Shown here in pieces: positions 22,406-59,391 of a stretch of 64,000 nt of DNA; within the stretch, counting starts at the first letter, position 1; each line of letters opens with the position of its first letter. Position numbers and translations under genes: made by a program. Source of the stretch: Candidatus Rokuibacteriota bacterium. Its GTDB lineage: Bacteria; Methylomirabilota; Methylomirabilia; Rokubacteriales; CSP1-6. The stretch spans positions 1 to 64,000 of the forward strand of contig QHRU01000060.1 of assembly GCA_003220225.1 (NCBI GenBank). Direction: 5' to 3'. The notes below the pieces were generated by a model, which had not been told where the DNA came from, searched no databases, and saw nothing but the letters and a program-made list of their open reading frames with translations.

Positions 22406-22422
22406 TTTAAGCCACCGTCCGG

Positions 22423-22560
22423 TGATCGAGGCGCGCCACGGCTTTGCCGGGGCGCGACGAGCGTGGGGGGTGTGGGGGGCGCGTGATCGAGGAGCGCCAC
22501 GGGTTCCCCGGGGCGCGACGAACGCTGGGGGGTGTGGGGGGCCATTTCGGGGCCCCCCAC
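22423..22560. repeat. R1 hairpin repeat, two units, reverse orientation
   Basis: Two R1 units between ttdB and the convergent glycosyltransferase, ending 7 bases from the latter's stop codon. Hairpin stems are GGCGCGCC-type at 22430-22455 and GAGCGCC/GGCGC-type at 22490-22517. The GGGGGGCC/GGCCCCCC hairpin sits nearest the glycosyltransferase, so the element is oriented 5' to 3' with that gene. Confidence 0.8.
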
Positions 22561-28086: not shown

Positions 28087-28982
28087 GCCGCCTGCTCGAC
28101 CGCCTGCAGCGCCTCTTTCCCGACGCCTCGCGCACGGCCATCCGCGGCTGGCTCGCGGCCGGGCGCGTGCGGGTGGACGGCGTCGTCGTCGGTCGCGGCG
28201 ACGCCGACGTTCCCGACGCCGCGCGCGTCACCCTCGGCGCGCCGGCGCCGTCGTTTCCCTCCGCGCTGCGGCTCGTGCACGAGGACGACGATCTGCTCGT
28301 CGTCGAAAAGCCGCCCGGCCTCCTCACCATCGGCACGGCGCGGGAGCGCGAGCGAACGCTCTACCGGCTGCTCTCCGACTACGTCCGCGCGACTCCTCAC
28401 CGGCGTGCCTCGCCGTCGGCGGCGGCTCGCACGGCCACACGACTGTTCATCGTCCACCGCCTGGATCGCGAGACCTCGGGACTTCTCGTGTTCGCGAAGT
28501 CGGCCGCGGTGAAGCGCGCGCTGCAGGCGCAGTTCGCCGCGCGCGCCGTCGAGCGCGGTTACGTGGCCGTGGTGGAGGGCCGCGTGCGCGACGATGCCGG
28601 CACGCTGCGCGACCGCATCGTCGAGGACCCGACGACGCTGCGCGTGCGGGCGGGACGCGGGGGTGGCCGCGAGGCGGTCACGGAGTACCGCGTGCGCGAG
28701 CGCCGTGCCCGCTCGACCGTGCTCGAGTTGCGCCTGCGTACCGGCCGGCGCGGCCAGATCCGCGCCCAGCTCGCGGCGCTCGGCCATCCGATCGTCGGCG
28801 ATCGCGCGTTCGGCGCGACCACCGATCCGGTGCGTCGCGTCTGCCTGCACGCCGCCGTGCTCGGCTTCACCGACGCGCGCGGCCGCGCCCAGCGATTCAC
28901 GAGCGCGCCGCCTACCTCATGGGGGGCCTCGATAGGGCCCCCCAAACCCCCCGACGCTCGGCGCGTCCCGGGAAACCCGTGA
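28083..28982 (+). CDS. RluA-family pseudouridine synthase with S4 domain; probable CTG start, repeat-derived tail
   Basis: About 299 residues. An S4 RNA-binding domain (SRLLDRLQRLFPDASRTAIR, then WLAAGRVRVDG) precedes the catalytic domain with DDDLLVVEKPPGLLTIGTA and catalytic Asp in FIVHRLDRETSGLLVFAKSA. The S4 domain is coding but lies before the first usual start codon (GTG 28167). The only candidate start that includes it is CTG at 28083, which overlaps the previous stop as CTGA. The last 20 or so residues (SWGASIGPPKPPDARRVPGN) are encoded by R1 repeat sequence, which also supplies the stop. It would isomerise uridines in rRNA or tRNA. Confidence 0.82.
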   Translation: MSRLLDRLQRLFPDASRTAIRGWLAAGRVRVDGVVVGRGDADVPDAARVTLGAPAPSFPSALRLVHEDDDLLVVEKPPGLLTIGTARERERTLYRLLSDYVRATPHRRASPSAAARTATRLFIVHRLDRETSGLLVFAKSAAVKRALQAQFAARAVERGYVAVVEGRVRDDAGTLRDRIVEDPTTLRVRAGRGGGREAVTEYRVRERRARSTVLELRLRTGRRGQIRAQLAALGHPIVGDRAFGATTDPVRRVCLHAAVLGFTDARGRAQRFTSAPPTSWGASIGPPKPPDARRVPGNP

Positions 28983-29060
28983 CGCGCCTCGAATTCGTCG
29001 GGCCCCCCAAACCCCCCGACGCTCGGCGCGTCCCGGGAAACCCGTGACGCGCCTCGAATT
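28920..29060. repeat. R1 hairpin repeat, two tandem units overlapping the rluA 3' end
   Basis: Two units with hairpin stems GGCGCGTC/GACGCGCC plus CGGG/CCCG and an AAA loop (about 28956-28989 and 29026-29054). The first unit lies inside the rluA reading frame. Compared with the 16200 copies both sides of the stem differ but still pair. Confidence 0.8.
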
Positions 29061-29180
29061 CTCGCGGGACCCGACGTGGCCCCAAACTTCCCGGCGCTCG
29101 TCGATTCCGAGTGGCTCCATGCCTGCAGTCGTCACATGGGTGAAGACGATTCACGAGGTCGCATGAGGAGGTTCGCAGAA

Positions 29181-48808: not shown

Positions 48809-48938
48809 GCCAACCTCGATTCGCCCTTGGCGAGGGATTCACGCTTGGCGAGGGAAGAGGATTACCGTAGAGTGACAAAGTTTGCTCGCCTGGTGCTGTC
48901 CGGCCGCACGCGGATCTAATCGCCAGCGGTCGTGCGTC

Positions 48939-49174
48939 ATCGAGGAGCGCCCCGGGTTCCCCGGGGCGTTTTCCGAGCGTTTGGGGGCGCGTGACCGAGG
49001 AGCGCCCCGGGTCCCTCAGGGCGCTTCCGAGCGTTGGGGAGCGCGCCATCGAGGAGCGCCCCGGGTTCCCCGGGGCGCTTCCGAGCGTTGGGGAGCGCGC
49101 CATCGAGGAGCGCCCCGGGTTCCCCGGGGCGCTTCCGAGCGTTGGGGGGTATGGGGGGCCCTCGTGGCCCCCCA
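48939..49174. repeat. R1 hairpin repeat, four tandem units of about 52 bp
   Basis: Four near-identical units of hairpin stem GAGCGCCCCGGG/CCCGGGGCGCTT with loop TTC (one unit has CCCTCAGGG), each followed by CCGAGCGTTGGGG, ending in a GGGGGGCC/GGCCCCCC hairpin that lies next to the stop of the phospholipase D-like gene (49176). The rest of the gap, 48809-48938, shows no gene. Confidence 0.85.
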
Positions 49175-51783: not shown

Positions 51784-52392
51784 TTGCAGACCACTCAACT
51801 CGTGTTTAGCCTCAAGACCATGACGCGGACTTCGTGGATACGGGAGGGGACGATCACTGAAATCGTCGGCGAGTTGTCGTCGGGCCGCACGAGTTTGATG
51901 ACCGCGTGCCTGCGCGACGTCACTGCGACCGGAGGGACCGCGGCGCTCGTGGACGCCGACGGCGCGTTCGATCCCGCGTCCGCGGCCCGCGCGGGTGTCG
52001 TGCTCTCGCGATTGCTGTGGGTGCGCTGCGGCGGACGTCGCGCCGCTGCGCTGGCCGCGACCGATCTGCTCACGCGCTGTCCGGGCTTTGCGCTCGTGGC
52101 CCTCGACGCCGGCGAGACGCCGCCGCGCGTGTCGCTCGGCGCCGCCTTTCGCCTGCGCCAGGCCGCGCGGCGCGCGGGGGTGGCGCTGCTGTTGGTCGGC
52201 CGGCGGCGCGTCGCGGGCGCCGGCGCGACGCTCGCCGTGCGCACGCGGCGCGACATGCTGGCGTGGGCCGGCTCCCGGCGCGCCCCGACGCGGCTGGTGG
52301 GCATGAGCACGTGCGTTCAAATCATCCGCAACCAGGGTGCGTCCTCGCCGCCGCCCGAGACGCTGGCCGAGCCGCAGTGGTGGACGGCATAG
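51784..52392 (+). CDS. imuA: ImuA-like RecA-fold protein of the mutagenesis cassette
   Basis: 202 residues from TTG 51784; ATG 51820 would give 190. The core GTITEIVGELSSGRTSLMTA (about 22-42) is the ImuA/SulA-RecA-like Walker-type loop, then TAALVDADGAFDPASAARAG and the rest of a short RecA fold. The usual N-terminal segment before the loop is abbreviated. ImuA helps recruit ImuB and DnaE2 for error-prone repair. It precedes imuB by 31 bases. No LexA-type operator was recognised upstream. Confidence 0.8.
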   Translation: MQTTQLVFSLKTMTRTSWIREGTITEIVGELSSGRTSLMTACLRDVTATGGTAALVDADGAFDPASAARAGVVLSRLLWVRCGGRRAAALAATDLLTRCPGFALVALDAGETPPRVSLGAAFRLRQAARRAGVALLLVGRRRVAGAGATLAVRTRRDMLAWAGSRRAPTRLVGMSTCVQIIRNQGASSPPPETLAEPQWWTA

Positions 52393-52423
52393 CTCAGGGG
52401 TGGCCACGGGGAGGGCCAGGCAC

Positions 52424-53902
52424 GTGAGCCGCGTGGCGTGCGTCTGGGTCGAGGCCTTCGCGGCGGCGGCCGCCGAGCGCGCGGAGCCCTCGCTGCGCGA
52501 GCGGCCGCTGGCTTTGGTCACGGGCGCCGCGCCCGCCACTCGCGTGGTGGAGGCCAACGCGGCGGCGCGCGAGCACGGTATTCGCGCGGGGATCCCCGAG
52601 GCGGAGGCGGTGGCGCGCTGCCCCCAGCTCGTCCGTCGTCCGGCGTCGGCGGCCTGCGCGGACGCGGCGCGCCGCGCGCTGCTCGACGCGTGCTACGGCG
52701 TTTCTCCCCGGCTGGAGGACGTCGCCCCGGGGCTCGTCCACGTCGACGTCGCTGGCCTCGGACGGCTGCTCGGCGGCGACGCCGCCGTCGCGGAGCGGCT
52801 GGGCCGCGCCGCGCGCGCGGTCGGCCTGCCCGCGCGCGTCGGTGTTGCGGGCACGCGCGCGGCCGGGCGCATCGCCGCACGCGCCGGGCTGGGTGTCATC
52901 ATTCCGGACGGCGAGGCCGACGCGCTGGCGCCGGTGCGGGTGGCGACGCTCGACTGGTCGGACGAGATCGCGCAGGCACTCGCGCGCTGGGGCGTGGCCA
53001 CGCTGGGAGAGCTCGCCCGGCTGCCCCGCGCCGCGTTGGCCGCCCGTCTCGGCTCGATGGGGCTCGTCGCCCACGATCTCGCGCGCGGGGTGGACGACCC
53101 GGCTCCGTGGACCTCATGGGCGCCGCCGCCGTTCTGGGAGGAGGCGCAGGAGCTCGACTGGGAGATCGACGCGCTCGGACCGCTCGTCACCGTGCTCGGG
53201 CGGGTCGTGGAGCGATTGACCGCGCGTCTGTCGGCCGCGTATCTCGTGGCCGACGCGCTCGAGCTGCGATTGGCCCTCGCCGGCGGCGGCCATCACGCGC
53301 GCACGCTCGCGCTGGCGTGCCCGATGGTCGCGCCCCGCCCGCTGTTGACGCTGCTCGAGCACGACCTCGGCGCGCGGCCGCCCCAGGGCGCCGTCACCGC
53401 GGTGGCGCTCCAGGCGAACGTCATTCCGTGCCGCGCGGTCGCCGGTGAGCTCGGGCGCGCGGCGCCGCCAGCGCAGCGCGACCTGGCCACGGTGCTCGCG
53501 CGGCTCGTCACGCTGGTGGGCGCCGATGGCGTCGGCGCCGTCGCGCTCACCGACTCGCACCGGCCCGACGCGTTCGTGCCGGCGCGGTTCGAGCCGAATC
53601 TCGTGCCGGAGACGGGCAGGGACACGGGCGACGCCGTGCTGGCGCTGCGTCGGCTGCGCCCCCCGCGTCGCGTGAGCGTGGCCACGGACGGCGAGCGCCG
53701 GCCCGCCGTCGTTTGCGGGGCCCTCGGGCCCGAGGCGCGCGTGATCGGATGCGCGGGGCCGTGGCGCGTGTCGGGCGAGTGGTGGGACGCCGGCGCCTGG
53801 GCGCGCGACGAGTGGGACGTGGCGCTCTCGGACGGCGCCGTGTGTCGGCTCGCGCGCGAGCTGCGTTCCGGTGAGTGGTACCTCGACGGCGTCTATGACT
53901 AG
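52424..53902 (+). CDS. imuB: ImuB: catalytically dead Y-family polymerase-like protein
   Basis: 492 residues from GTG 52424. A Y-family DNA polymerase fold is recognisable ([40 protein letters not shown]; a helix-hairpin-helix at [20 protein letters not shown]). The catalytic acids are missing: VWVEAF replaces the VDMDAFF motif and HVDVAGLGR replaces SIDE. This is the mark of ImuB, which serves as an adaptor between the beta clamp, ImuA and DnaE2. The C-terminal 150 residues form the ImuB-specific region. Two R2 elements separate it from dnaE2. Confidence 0.87.
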
Positions 53903-53937: not shown

Positions 53938-54083
53938 CGAGCGATGGGCACCGGGGCAGCCCCCGTGAGACCCGTGTTTCGGGTACTGCGTCGGACACGG
54001 CTGCGAATCGGTGCACGTTGACAGGCGCACCGTACTGTCGATTTGCGTGGTCGAACGGGGGCAGCCCCGGTGCCCATCGCTCG
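53938..54083. repeat. R2 element copy 1: 88-nt core flanked by 29-bp self-complementary arms
   Basis: Arms 53938-53966 and 54055-54083 pair at 28 of 29 positions. Between them lies an 88-nt core (53967-54054) beginning GAGACCCGTGTTTCGGGTAC, an internal hairpin, and ending GCGTGGTCGA. The core is nearly identical to copy 2 but the outer arms are different in sequence. Located in the imuB-dnaE2 gap. Confidence 0.85.
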
Positions 54084-54150: not shown

Positions 54151-54306
54151 GCGATCGGCGGGCGCGGCCGGCGGCAGCCCCCACGAGACCCGTGTTTCGG
54201 GTACTGCGTCGGACACGGCTGCGAATCGGTGCACGTCGACAGGCGCAACCCATCGTCGATTTGCGTGGTCGAGTGGGGGCTGCCGCCGGCCGTGCCCGCC
54301 GGTCGC
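54151..54306. repeat. R2 element copy 2: same 88-nt core, different 34-bp self-complementary arms
   Basis: Arms 54151-54184 and 54273-54306 pair at 32 of 34 positions; the core is 54185-54272. Only the innermost arm bases (GGCAGCCCCC and its complement) resemble copy 1. The element ends 10 bases before the dnaE2 ATG. Together the two copies occupy most of the 414-base imuB-dnaE2 gap, which holds no gene. Confidence 0.85.
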
Positions 54307-54316
54307 AGGCAGCGTG

Positions 54317-57300
54317 ATGTTCGTCGAGCTGCACGCGCAGTCGGCGTTCACGTTTCTCGAGGGCGCGGACCAGCCGGAGGCGCTGGTGGCGGAGGCGGCG
54401 CGGCGTGGCATGCCGGCGCTGGCGCTCGTGGACCGCGACGGCGTCTACGGCGCGCCGCGCTTCCATCGCGCCGCGGTCGACGCGGGCATCCGCCCGCTCG
54501 TCGGCAGCGAGCTGACGCTCGCCGGCGGCGCGCGGCTGCCCGTGCTGGTCGAGGATCGCGAGGGCTGGCAGAACCTCTGCCGGTTGATCACGCGCGCCAA
54601 GCTCGGCGCGCCCAAGGGCAAGGCCGCCCTCAGCCTCGAGGACCTCGAAGCCTCGGCGAACGGTCTCGTGTGCCTCACCGGCGGCGCGCGCGGGCCCCTC
54701 GCCGCCGCGGTGCGCGCGGGCGATCGCGACGCCGCGAGAGCGATCCTCGACCGGCTGGTCGGCATCTTCGGCCGCGCCAGCGTCTTCGTGGAGGTGCAGC
54801 GCCACTTCGACCGCGCGCAGGAGCGCGATCTCGAGCGGCTGGTGGCGCTGGCGCGCGCCGCGCGCGTGCCGCTCCTGGCCGCCAACCAGCCCCTCTACGC
54901 GCGCCCCGGCGGCCGCGCCGTGGCCGACGTCTTCACGTGCATCCGGGAGAAGACCGACCTCGATCACGCGGGCCGCCGGCTGCTGGCGAACGCCGAGCGC
55001 GGCCTGCGCGACGGCGCGGCGACGACGGCGGCGTTCCGCGACCTGCCCGAGGCCGTGGCCGCCGGCGGCGAGCTGGCGTTGCGCCTGGGCTTCACGCTCA
55101 AGGATCTCGGCTATCGCTTTCCCGACTTCCCGCTGCCGCCCGGCGAGAGCGTGCAGGCGCACCTGCGCGACCTCGTCGCGCGCGGCGTGCGCGCGCGATA
55201 CGGCGCCGCCGGCCCGCTCGTCGAGCGCGCGCGGCGGCAGGTCGCCCACGAGCTGGAGATCATCGGCCGGCTCGATCTCGCCGGCTACTTCCTCATCGTC
55301 TGGGACATCGTGGAGTTCTGCCGCGCCAACGACGTCCTCGTGCAGGGCCGCGGCTCCGCCGCCAACAGCGCGGTCTGCTATGCGCTCGGCATCACGGCCG
55401 TCGATCCGGTGAAGATGGAGCTGCTCTTCGAGCGTTTCCTCTCGGAGTCGCGCGGCGAGTGGCCGGACATCGACCTCGACCTGCCGAGCGGCGAGCGGCG
55501 CGAGACGGTCATCCAGTACGTGTACCGGCGCTACGGCCGGCTCGGCGCAGGGATGACGGCGAACGTCATCACGTACCGCGGGCGCAGCGCCGCCCGCGAA
55601 GTCGGCAAGGCGCTCGGGCTGCCCGGCGACATGCAGGACCGGCTCGCCGGGCTCGTCGAGAACTGGGGTTACCAGGATCCGCAGGCGGTGCTGACACGCC
55701 ACCTGCAGGAGGCGGGCTGCGACACGCGGCATCCGCGCATCCGCAAGTTCGCCGCCCTCTGGACGCGGCTTCAAGATCTCCCCCGGCATCTCGGCCAGCA
55801 CTCGGGCGGCATGGTCATCGCCGCCGGCCGACTCGACGACGTGGTGCCGCTCGAGCCGGCCACGATGCCGGGCCGCGTGGTCGTGCAGTGGGACAAGGAC
55901 GATTGCGCCGCGCTCGGCATCGTGAAGGTGGATCTTCTCGGTCTTCGGATGATGTCGGTGCTCCAGGAATCCATCGCGCTCGTGAGCGAGACGGGCGGGG
56001 TGGTCGACCTCGCGCACCTGCCCGCCGACGACAAGGCCGTGTACGGCATGCTCCAGCGCGCGGACACGATCGGCGTGTTCCAGGTGGAGAGCCGCGCCCA
56101 GATGGCGACGCTGCCGCGCATCCATCCCGAGCGTTTCTACGACCTCGTGGTGCAGATCGCCATCATCCGCCCGGGCCCGATCGTCGGCGACATGGTGCAT
56201 CCCTACGTCCGCCGCCGGCGCGGCCGCGAGCCGGTGACGTACGCCCACCCGAGCCTGGAGCCGATCCTGTCGCGCACGCTCGGCGTGCCGCTCTTCCAGG
56301 AGCAGCTGCTGCGCATCGCGATGGTGGCCGCGGGCTTCTCCGGCAGCGAGGCGGAGGAGCTGCGCCGCGCCTTCGGCTTCAAGCGCAGTGAGCGCCGGAT
56401 GGCGGAGGTGGAGGTGAAGCTGCGCGAGGGCATGGCGCGCCGGGGGATCACCGGCCGAGCCGCGGACGAGATCGTCCACCAGATCACGTCGTTCGCGCTG
56501 TATGGATTCCCCGAGTGCGTGGTGGGTGACACCCGCGTGCTCGACGCGGACAGCGGGCGGTGGGTACGGATCGAGGACGTCGTCAACGGTGTCGACCGCG
56601 TGGAGGCCACCCTGGCGTGCGACGAGGGCCGGACGCTGCGACGGCGCCGAGTGCTCCGCGCCACCGCCAGCGGTCGTCGCGGCGTCTATCGCCTGACGAC
56701 GCTGGGCGGACGGACGATCGTCGCCACCGCCGAGCATCTGCTGTTGACGCCCCAGGGCTGGCGACCGCTCGCCGCGCTGCGCGAGCGCGATCGTGTCGCG
56801 GGGGCCCGGCGCGGTGGCGGGAGCGCCGAGCTGGTCGACTCGAGCGTCGGGTGGGACAGCGTTGTCATCGTGGAGCGCGCCGGAGTGCGGGACACCTACG
56901 ACCTCGAGATCGAGGGCGACCACAACTTCCTCGCCAACGACCTGGTCGTCCACAACTCGCACAGCAGCAGCTTCGCGCTGCTCGCCTACGCCAGCGCGTA
57001 CCTCAAGGCGCACCACGGCCCGGCCTTCTACGCGGCGCTGCTCAACAACCAGCCCATGGGCTTCTACCACTCGGCCACCGTCGTCAACGACGCGCGCCGG
57101 CACGGCGTGCGCGTGCTGCCGGTGGACGTCACGCGCTCGAACTGGCCGTGCACGCTCGAGCAGCGCGAGGGCGTCTGGGTGGTGCGCCTCGGCCTCCGCT
57201 TCGTGAAGGGGCTGCGCGAGCGCGCGGGACAGGCGCTGGTGGCCGCGCGCGCGGCGCGGGCGTTCGCCTCTGCGCCCGACCTCGCCGCGCGCGCCGCTCT

Positions 57301-57889
57301 CACGCGCGAGGAGATGGCCACGCTCGCCTCGATCGGCGCGCTGGCGCCGCTGGGCGGCACGCGCCGCGCGAATCTCTGGACCGTCGCCGAGCAGGACGCG
57401 GGGCCCCTGTTCGCGGGAACGGTTGTCGCGCAGACGGAGCCACTCCGCACGACACGATCACCATTGCCTGAAATGACCGTGCTCGACAGGCTCACGGCCG
57501 ACTACGCCGGCACCGGCGTCACGCTTGGCCCGCACCCGATGGCGCTGCGGCGCGCGGCGCTCGCCGCGCGCGGCGTCACGCGGGCGATCGACCTCGCGCG
57601 CGGCGACGACGGCGCGCGTGTGCGGGTGGCGGGCAGCGTGATCGTGCGCCAGCGGCCCGGCACGGCGAAGGGCTTCGTGTTCCTGAGCCTCGAGGACGAG
57701 ACCGGGATCGCGAACGTCATCGTGACGCCGGGCCTCTTCGCGCGCCGGCGGCTGCCGCTCGTCAGCGAGCCGTTTTTGCTCGTGGAGGGGATCTTACAAA
57801 TGCAGGACGGCGTGGTGTCCGTGCGCGCCGCGCGCGTCGAGCCATTGCCGCGGCTCGCGCACGTCGTGCCCTCGCACGATTTCGGGTAA
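54317..57889 (+). CDS. dnaE2: Error-prone DNA polymerase DnaE2 with an in-frame mini-intein
   Basis: 1190 residues as translated; about 1043 after removing a 147-residue intein, normal for DnaE2. PHP domain N-terminus [20 protein letters not shown], and a palm with [17 protein letters not shown] (about 352) and the catalytic acids in [40 protein letters not shown] and [20 protein letters not shown] are typical DnaE2 segments. The C-terminal OB domain has [20 protein letters not shown]. It copies damaged DNA with ImuA/ImuB, causing mutation. ATG at 54317 lies right after R2 copy 2. The extein is interrupted between GFPE and [10 protein letters not shown]. Confidence 0.93.
56516..56956 (+). other. 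Mini-intein inside DnaE2 (147 residues, no homing endonuclease)
   Basis: Codons 734-880 of dnaE2. Block A starts with the nucleophile Cys: [20 protein letters not shown]. Block B has the TxxH motif in [19 protein letters not shown]. Block F is [20 protein letters not shown] and block G ends LVVHN, followed by Ser as the first C-extein residue. These are all the residues needed for splicing by N-S shift, Ser transesterification and Asn cyclisation. The penultimate His is present. No LAGLIDADG or HNH endonuclease lies between blocks B and F. It splits the conserved YGFPE/SHSSSFA site of the polymerase fingers. Confidence 0.9.
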
Positions 57890-58360: not shown

Positions 58361-58459
58361 GTGCGGCCGGTCTGGAAAGGCGCGCTGACCTTCGGCCTCG
58401 TCACCATCCCCGTCGGCCTGTACCCGGCGACGGCGCCGGCGGGGAGGCGCGCCTCGTGA
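58361..58459 (+). pseudogene. ku: Ku N-terminal stub (32 codons)
   Basis: VRPVWKGALTFGLVTIPVGL, then YPATAPAGRRAS and a TGA. The first 25 residues are an excellent match to the start of bacterial Ku, which normally has about 260-300 residues; the rest is absent. The stop overlaps the LigD GTG (GTGA), as an intact Ku stop might, so the stub could be N-terminus joined to the extreme C-terminus after an internal deletion. It cannot bind DNA ends. Confidence 0.8.
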
Positions 58460-59391
58460 GCTCGGCGACGCGCGTGCTCGAGCTGGACGAGCGGCGGCTG
58501 CTGCTCAACCATCTCGACGAGGTGCTGTGGCCCGACGTCGGCGTCACCAAGGGCGACCTCATCGACTACTACCTCGAGGTCGCCGATCACCTCCTGCCGT
58601 TCGTGGCCAACCGGCCCGTGAGCCTGCTCCACGCGCCCGATCCGATCACGGGCGAGTGCCTGTACCAGAAGACGGCGCCGCCGGGGTTGCCCACGTGGAT
58701 CCCCACGCGCCGCATCCGCAGCGAGCACGCCGCCCTCGGCTACTCCGACTACGTGCTGGTCGTCGAGCGCGCCGCCCTCGCCTACTTCCTGAACCTCGGC
58801 TACATCTCGCTCCACCCGTGGAGCTGCACGGTCGACATGCTCGACCGCCCCGATCTGATGCTGTTCGACCTCGACCCCACCGAGATTGCGTTCCGCGAGG
58901 TGCGCAACGCCGCCCTGCTCGTGCGCGACTTGCTGAACAACTTCCGGATCCGCGCGTGGGTCAAGACCTCGGGCGGCCGTGGCCTGCACGTGCTGGTGCC
59001 GCTCACGCCCCAGTACAGCTTCTCCCAGGTGCGCGGCGCGGCCGAGATGATCACGCGCCTGGCGCGCTCGCGCGAGCCCAGCCTGTTCACGCTCGACATG
59101 CGGCGCGCGCGGCGGCGCGGCAAGATCCTCATCGACGTCCACCGCAACCATCGCGGCGCGACGCTGGTGAGCCCGTGGGCGGTGCGCGAGTACGCGGCCG
59201 CCACCGTGTCGACGCCGCTGGAGTGGGTCGAGCTCGAGCGCCCCGTGTACCCCGAAGACTTCACGCTGGCCACCATCCGCGACCGGCTCGCGCGCGCGAA
59301 CGACCCGCTGGCGTCGCTCCTCCGCGCGCCGCAGTCGCTGAAGCCGCTGCTGGAAAGCGGCCGCTCGCGCCGCGCGCGACCGATGGCCTAG
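58456..59391 (+). CDS. ligD: LigD-type NHEJ primase-polymerase domain protein
   Basis: 311 residues from the GTG overlapping the Ku stub. The LigD polymerase (PolDom) family is shown by LLNHLDEVLWPDVGVTKGDL (about 17-36), the metal DxD in DLMLFDLDPTEIAF (about 136), HPWSCTVDMLDRPD and VKTSGGRGLHVLVPLTPQYS (about 172). It is a stand-alone polymerase: the ATP ligase and phosphoesterase domains of full LigD are not attached. It would fill gaps during end joining, but the adjacent Ku is gone. Confidence 0.88.
   Translation: MSSATRVLELDERRLLLNHLDEVLWPDVGVTKGDLIDYYLEVADHLLPFVANRPVSLLHAPDPITGECLYQKTAPPGLPTWIPTRRIRSEHAALGYSDYVLVVERAALAYFLNLGYISLHPWSCTVDMLDRPDLMLFDLDPTEIAFREVRNAALLVRDLLNNFRIRAWVKTSGGRGLHVLVPLTPQYSFSQVRGAAEMITRLARSREPSLFTLDMRRARRRGKILIDVHRNHRGATLVSPWAVREYAAATVSTPLEWVELERPVYPEDFTLATIRDRLARANDPLASLLRAPQSLKPLLESGRSRRARPMA

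Follow-up and report, generated by a model that had tools for sequence, protein, structure and literature searches.

Within the 64,000 nucleotides analysed here (hereafter the window; contig QHRU01000060.1 of a Candidatus Rokuibacteriota bacterium living in soil), an ImuA-like and an ImuB-like gene precede a complete gene for an error-prone polymerase of the DnaE2/ImuC type, which is the usual arrangement of the mutasome cassette (Table 1). The polymerase gene starts with the ATG at 54317 and stops at 57887-57889, and an intein lies in the same open frame. The assignment of the host to DnaE2, already made in the preliminary description, is borne out by the NCBIfam profile PRK05672 (error-prone DNA polymerase, 1226 bits), and both the subfamily match and the ImuA- and ImuB-like neighbours are those of DnaE2/ImuC. 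Just downstream (58456-59391) lies a gene for a LigD primase-polymerase, i.e., an end-joining gene adjoins the mutasome cassette. Between imuB and dnaE2 are found two copies (53938-54083 and 54168-54289) of an element of 120-146 bp with inverted arms of 35-42 nt, for which 51 matching stretches are listed genome-wide and which belongs to a REP/MITE-like family. Elsewhere in the window, tandem arrays of GC-rich units of 54-65 bp occur at 48934-49147, 22422-22542 and 28935-29061, the motif GAGGAGCGCC...CCCCGGGGCGC being common to at least the first two.

Table 1. Coordinates, in the window, of the cassette genes and of the parts of the intein-containing polymerase.
Feature	Coordinates	Strand	Basis
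ImuA-like (RecA-fold) gene	51784..52392	+	PF00154, E 1.7e-9
ImuB-like Y-family gene	52337..53902	+	PF00817, E 2.1e-19; true start probably slightly downstream
dnaE2/imuC gene, intein-containing precursor, 1190 aa	54317..57889	+	PRK05672; PHP, DNA_pol3_alpha, finger, HHH_6 and OB domains
N-extein, ending ...ALYGFPE	54317..56515	+	Translation; empty-site relatives with YGFPESHASSF
Mini-intein, 147 aa, class 1, without endonuclease	56516..56956	+	PF14890, TIGR01445, TIGR01443; HINT fold model
Cys1, first nucleophile	56516..56518	+	Same in all 39 DnaE2 and 24 DnaE1 inteins
Cys35, non-catalytic	56618..56620	+	Alignment of DnaE2 inteins
Block B TxxH (TAEH), intein residues 71-74	56726..56737	+	Alignment
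Block F, intein residues 128-140, including Asp129	56897..56935	+	Alignment
Block G VVHN and Ser+1	56945..56959	+	His146-Asn147 unvarying
C-extein	56957..57886	+	Translation; Ser-His aligned to E. coli Pol III alpha 759-760 and Mtb DnaE1 786-787

Anatomy of the intein and its insertion site

The insert is a class 1 mini-intein. It had been described as a mini-intein of 147 residues with all splicing residues and no endonuclease; its coordinates proved exact and all three curated profiles scored above their cut-offs, namely (i) PF14890 with 55.4 bits (cut-off 35.8; E 7.8e-15), (ii) the N-terminal model TIGR01445 with 41.6 bits (cut-off 24.5), and (iii) the C-terminal model TIGR01443 with 28.4 bits (cut-off 15.6). 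Besides these matches, the class is defined by Cys1, the TxxH motif, block F, the His-Asn end (codon of Asn147 at 56954-56956) and Ser+1 (codon at 56957-56959). In the domain search, neither a LAGLIDADG nor an HNH endonuclease domain matched the 147-aa insert. Residue 75 is Leu; a Pro occupies this position in 90% or more of the mini forms in the alignment, but is also missing from other functional inteins.

Among inteins of solved structure, the Ssp DnaB mini-intein (1mi8) is the best relative, with E 6.5e-21. An AlphaFold2 model of the window intein, built with 18 related sequences (pLDDT 86.9, pTM 0.82), was compared with the solved NpuDnaB, SspDnaB and Mtu RecA inteins and gave a Z of about 23 and an rmsd of 1.4-2.3 Å, so that the predicted fold is that of a HINT domain. 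Like these mini-inteins, to which it is 34-37% identical, the window intein is thus a class 1 HINT domain of the same fold, the endonuclease being absent or deletable, but the host proteins and the insertion sites differ.

The insertion between YGFPE and SHSSSF, with Ser as +1 residue, agrees with the translation and with intein-free relatives, where YGFPESHASSF runs uninterrupted; as such, the intein is an in-frame insertion with empty homologues. By alignment, the junction (YGFPE/SH, the slash marking the splice junction) falls between Lys758 and Ser759 of the E. coli Pol III alpha subunit and between Lys785 and Ser786 of Mtb DnaE1, and the His just after it corresponds to Mtb DnaE1 His787, located at the position of the incoming nucleotide (PMC8922275). 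Since 147 residues are inserted just before a His of the nucleotide site, the unspliced DnaE2 precursor should be inactive as a polymerase.

In the cyanobacterial split DnaE intein (Npu and Ssp DnaE), the C-extein begins with CFNK (PMC2664965). The two elements share as target a C-family polymerase and its conserved YGFNKSH segment, but the cyanobacterial allele (junction Y/CFNK) has Cys as +1 residue, a split gene and a replicative host, and is only 17-18% identical to the window model. As first noted from the sequence, the DnaE2 junction is near this site without coinciding with it, being situated four residues downstream. No description of the DnaE2 allele was found in the open literature searched; a 2013 survey of DnaE families had excised inteins before analysis. 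The DnaE1-type site considered below may have been reported earlier, the Thermus and Trichodesmium DnaE insertion sites lying outside the comparison. As a kind of mobile element the window intein is known; the allele is new.

Distribution, gain and loss

The distribution of the DnaE2 intein was assessed with the pattern F[AG]xYGFPE followed by Cys, an exact pattern for which all counts are lower bounds. In the phylum, at least 17 of the 95 genomes carry an intein at YGFPE/SH and, among 84,980 species genomes, at least 37 cases were judged genuine by reading (12 in Rokubacteria, 16 in Pseudomonadota, 7 in Myxococcota, 1 in Acidobacteriota and 1 in Armatimonadota), three further loci with short frames (L130, L135 and L147) being left out of the count. 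Most of the compared sequences derive from metagenome bins. Of note, a contig from a bin labelled Acidobacteria (L121, QHVJ01000235.1) matches the window with 99.8% identity along 7 kb; it is probably a contig of Rokubacteria that was wrongly binned or labelled, and was not taken as an independent phylum.

Empty sites, whose search had been proposed as a check in the preliminary description, were found in homologous DnaE2 of related genomes: of the DnaE2 genes sampled, 15 have an uninterrupted junction, and all others contain the intein. Together with the identity of Cys1, His146 and Asn147 across 39 of 39 aligned DnaE2 intein copies, the empty sites of close relatives speak against a non-splicing domain common to most DnaE2 proteins. 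The occupied genes harbour either mini forms of 137-160 aa or long forms of 374-438 aa, and a LAGLIDADG_3 domain (PF14528) was present in each of the four long forms tested; the forms bearing this domain measure about 385-438 aa, or about 423 residues in round terms. One mini form (L131) retains a piece resembling an endonuclease linker. The 39 distinct DnaE2 inteins all fall into a single clade (SH-aLRT 98) that spans phyla and excludes every other intein in the tree. Close relatives of this intein were detected neither in phages, where only a Planktothrix phage DnaB intein matched (35%), nor in plasmids (one partial match, 38%), nor in viral contigs, with distant DnaE inteins only (27-42%).

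Gain and loss were mapped on a tree built from the polymerase sequence that flanks the insert (58 rows, including four in which a genome is represented by a second copy). Presence and absence require 10 changes or more, of which 8 are imposed by well-supported branches, and among the occupied genes 13 changes between mini and long forms are required. The succession of gain and loss is that of a homing element, i.e., invasion, endonuclease decay and loss, and patchy spread combined with LAGLIDADG-bearing forms is fully accounted for by a homing element that has shed its endonuclease. Purifying selection acts on the splicing domain (dN/dS 0.09-0.44 over 19 pairs), as would be necessary if the function of the host protein requires splicing. 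Mini forms, derived from many independent endonuclease losses, account for about half of the occupied genes, which is compatible with the splicing domain being of some advantage.

Decay of the intein itself, with loss of splicing and a dead DnaE2, is very improbable for the window copy. In a genome of the same genus (G001), the DnaE2 intein (G001:C280, L061) lacks, in frame, block G and the start of the C-extein, which suggests that non-splicing alleles may exist nearby; the DnaE1 intein of that genome (G001:C141, L101) is likewise shortened, and these truncations may reflect either decay or an error of assembly. In the window, on the contrary, all the catalytic residues and the polymerase domains are intact, and dN/dS relative to genome G002 amounts to 0.29 for the intein and 0.12 for the exteins.

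The DnaE1 paralogue and other inteins of the genome

The DnaE1 polymerase of the same genome (G000:C108:218918-222487, L075) contains a mini-intein of its own at YGFNK/SH, and most relatives of the family have an intein at this DnaE1 junction. It resembles the window intein in its homologous junction, in its Ser+1 and in the existence of mini and long forms, but it belongs to a separate clade and is devoid of the stretch bearing Cys35. Exactly homologous junctions, YGFNK/SH and YGFPE/SH, within one genome are what a recent jump of the intein from DnaE1 to DnaE2 would leave behind. This origin is nonetheless most improbable and largely refuted by the comparisons made, as the two sets of inteins fall into two separate supported clades, the DnaE1 inteins being closer to DnaB inteins in the tree, and, in 15 genomes from other phyla that have a DnaE2 intein, the DnaE1 match continues across the site with no insert.

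Viral contigs (L163-L167) also encode DnaE polymerases with inteins ending at an HN/SHS junction. Two of these inteins (L164 and L165) share the C-terminal junction HN/SHS with the window intein, and have YGFN(K or L) followed by Cys at the N-terminal junction, but differ by their identity of 27-29% and by their phage hosts. Given the separate clades, the empty DnaE1 sites elsewhere and the viral cases, this codon is a repeated, independent target: separate, distantly related inteins have hit the corresponding codon in each of the two paralogues.

The genome as a whole is rich in inteins, which were observed in DnaB (two), RecA, RadA, a DUF362-like protein, a UvrD/PcrA-type helicase, DnaE1 and DnaE2, the host names other than DnaE2 resting on the reading of flanking sequence; those other than the DnaE1 and DnaE2 inteins are located on contigs C97, C149, C113, C69 and C101 of genome G000 (L063, L004, L065, L066 and L215). 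Replication and repair proteins of this genome are thereby a set rich in inteins.

Splicing, possible regulation and retention

After translation, ordinary protein splicing via Cys1, Asn147 and Ser+1 would release the intein and join YGFPE to SHSSSF, by which the segment of the fingers domain lining the nucleotide site would be restored. Control of the polymerase by splicing that responds to redox state or damage through the catalytic Cys had been suggested in the preliminary description. DnaE2 would be kept inactive until freed, e.g., with a reversible Cys1-Cys35 disulfide blocking the reaction under oxidation, a fair but hypothetical switch. The one positive sign of it in the sequence is Cys35, to which that description did not draw attention. 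This residue is the sole other cysteine of the window intein and is present in 37 of 39 DnaE2 inteins from several phyla; the sequence aligned from 1mi8 has no equivalent, and the stretch is missing from the DnaE1 inteins. The host protein moreover works in damage tolerance, and a precedent exists in M. smegmatis DnaBi1, where a disulfide between a non-catalytic and the catalytic cysteine forms and splicing is blocked in H2O2, although a distance of 11-12 Å separates the two cysteines in the crystal structure (PMC6195587). DnaBi1 and the window intein have in common that a further cysteine without catalytic role accompanies the catalytic one, but DnaBi1, whose redox response was measured, follows a class 3 mechanism in a replicative helicase. 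Conditional splicing nevertheless seems unlikely: the two remaining DnaE2 inteins, both from Myxococcales, have Ser35, close relatives with empty sites indicate that the host manages without the intein, and a useful switch would be expected to do the reverse of silencing a damage polymerase when oxidative damage occurs. Cys35 may instead be structural. Less credible still is the broader proposal that the Cys1-Cys35 pair, kept across several phyla, locks the mutagenic polymerase in a redox-timed manner, in which the inteins of DnaE1, DnaB, RecA, RadA and the UvrD-type helicase would together couple replication and mutagenesis to splicing.

Very probably, then, the window intein is a DnaE2-specific homing intein in a degenerate, endonuclease-free state, which splices and for which no regulatory role is needed. 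The past spread of the element would have been driven by its endonuclease, while its present retention would be explained by its splicing and by the cost of its precise removal.

The element is an intein allele that occurs across phyla in a mutagenic polymerase of the SOS type. A single bacterial family has its empty, full-length and mini versions, and so offers a natural series well suited to following the homing cycle. The double hit on a homologous codon in DnaE1 and DnaE2 shows the strength of the preference of inteins for active-site codons. If splicing were conditional, it would constitute a post-translational control of the mutation rate.
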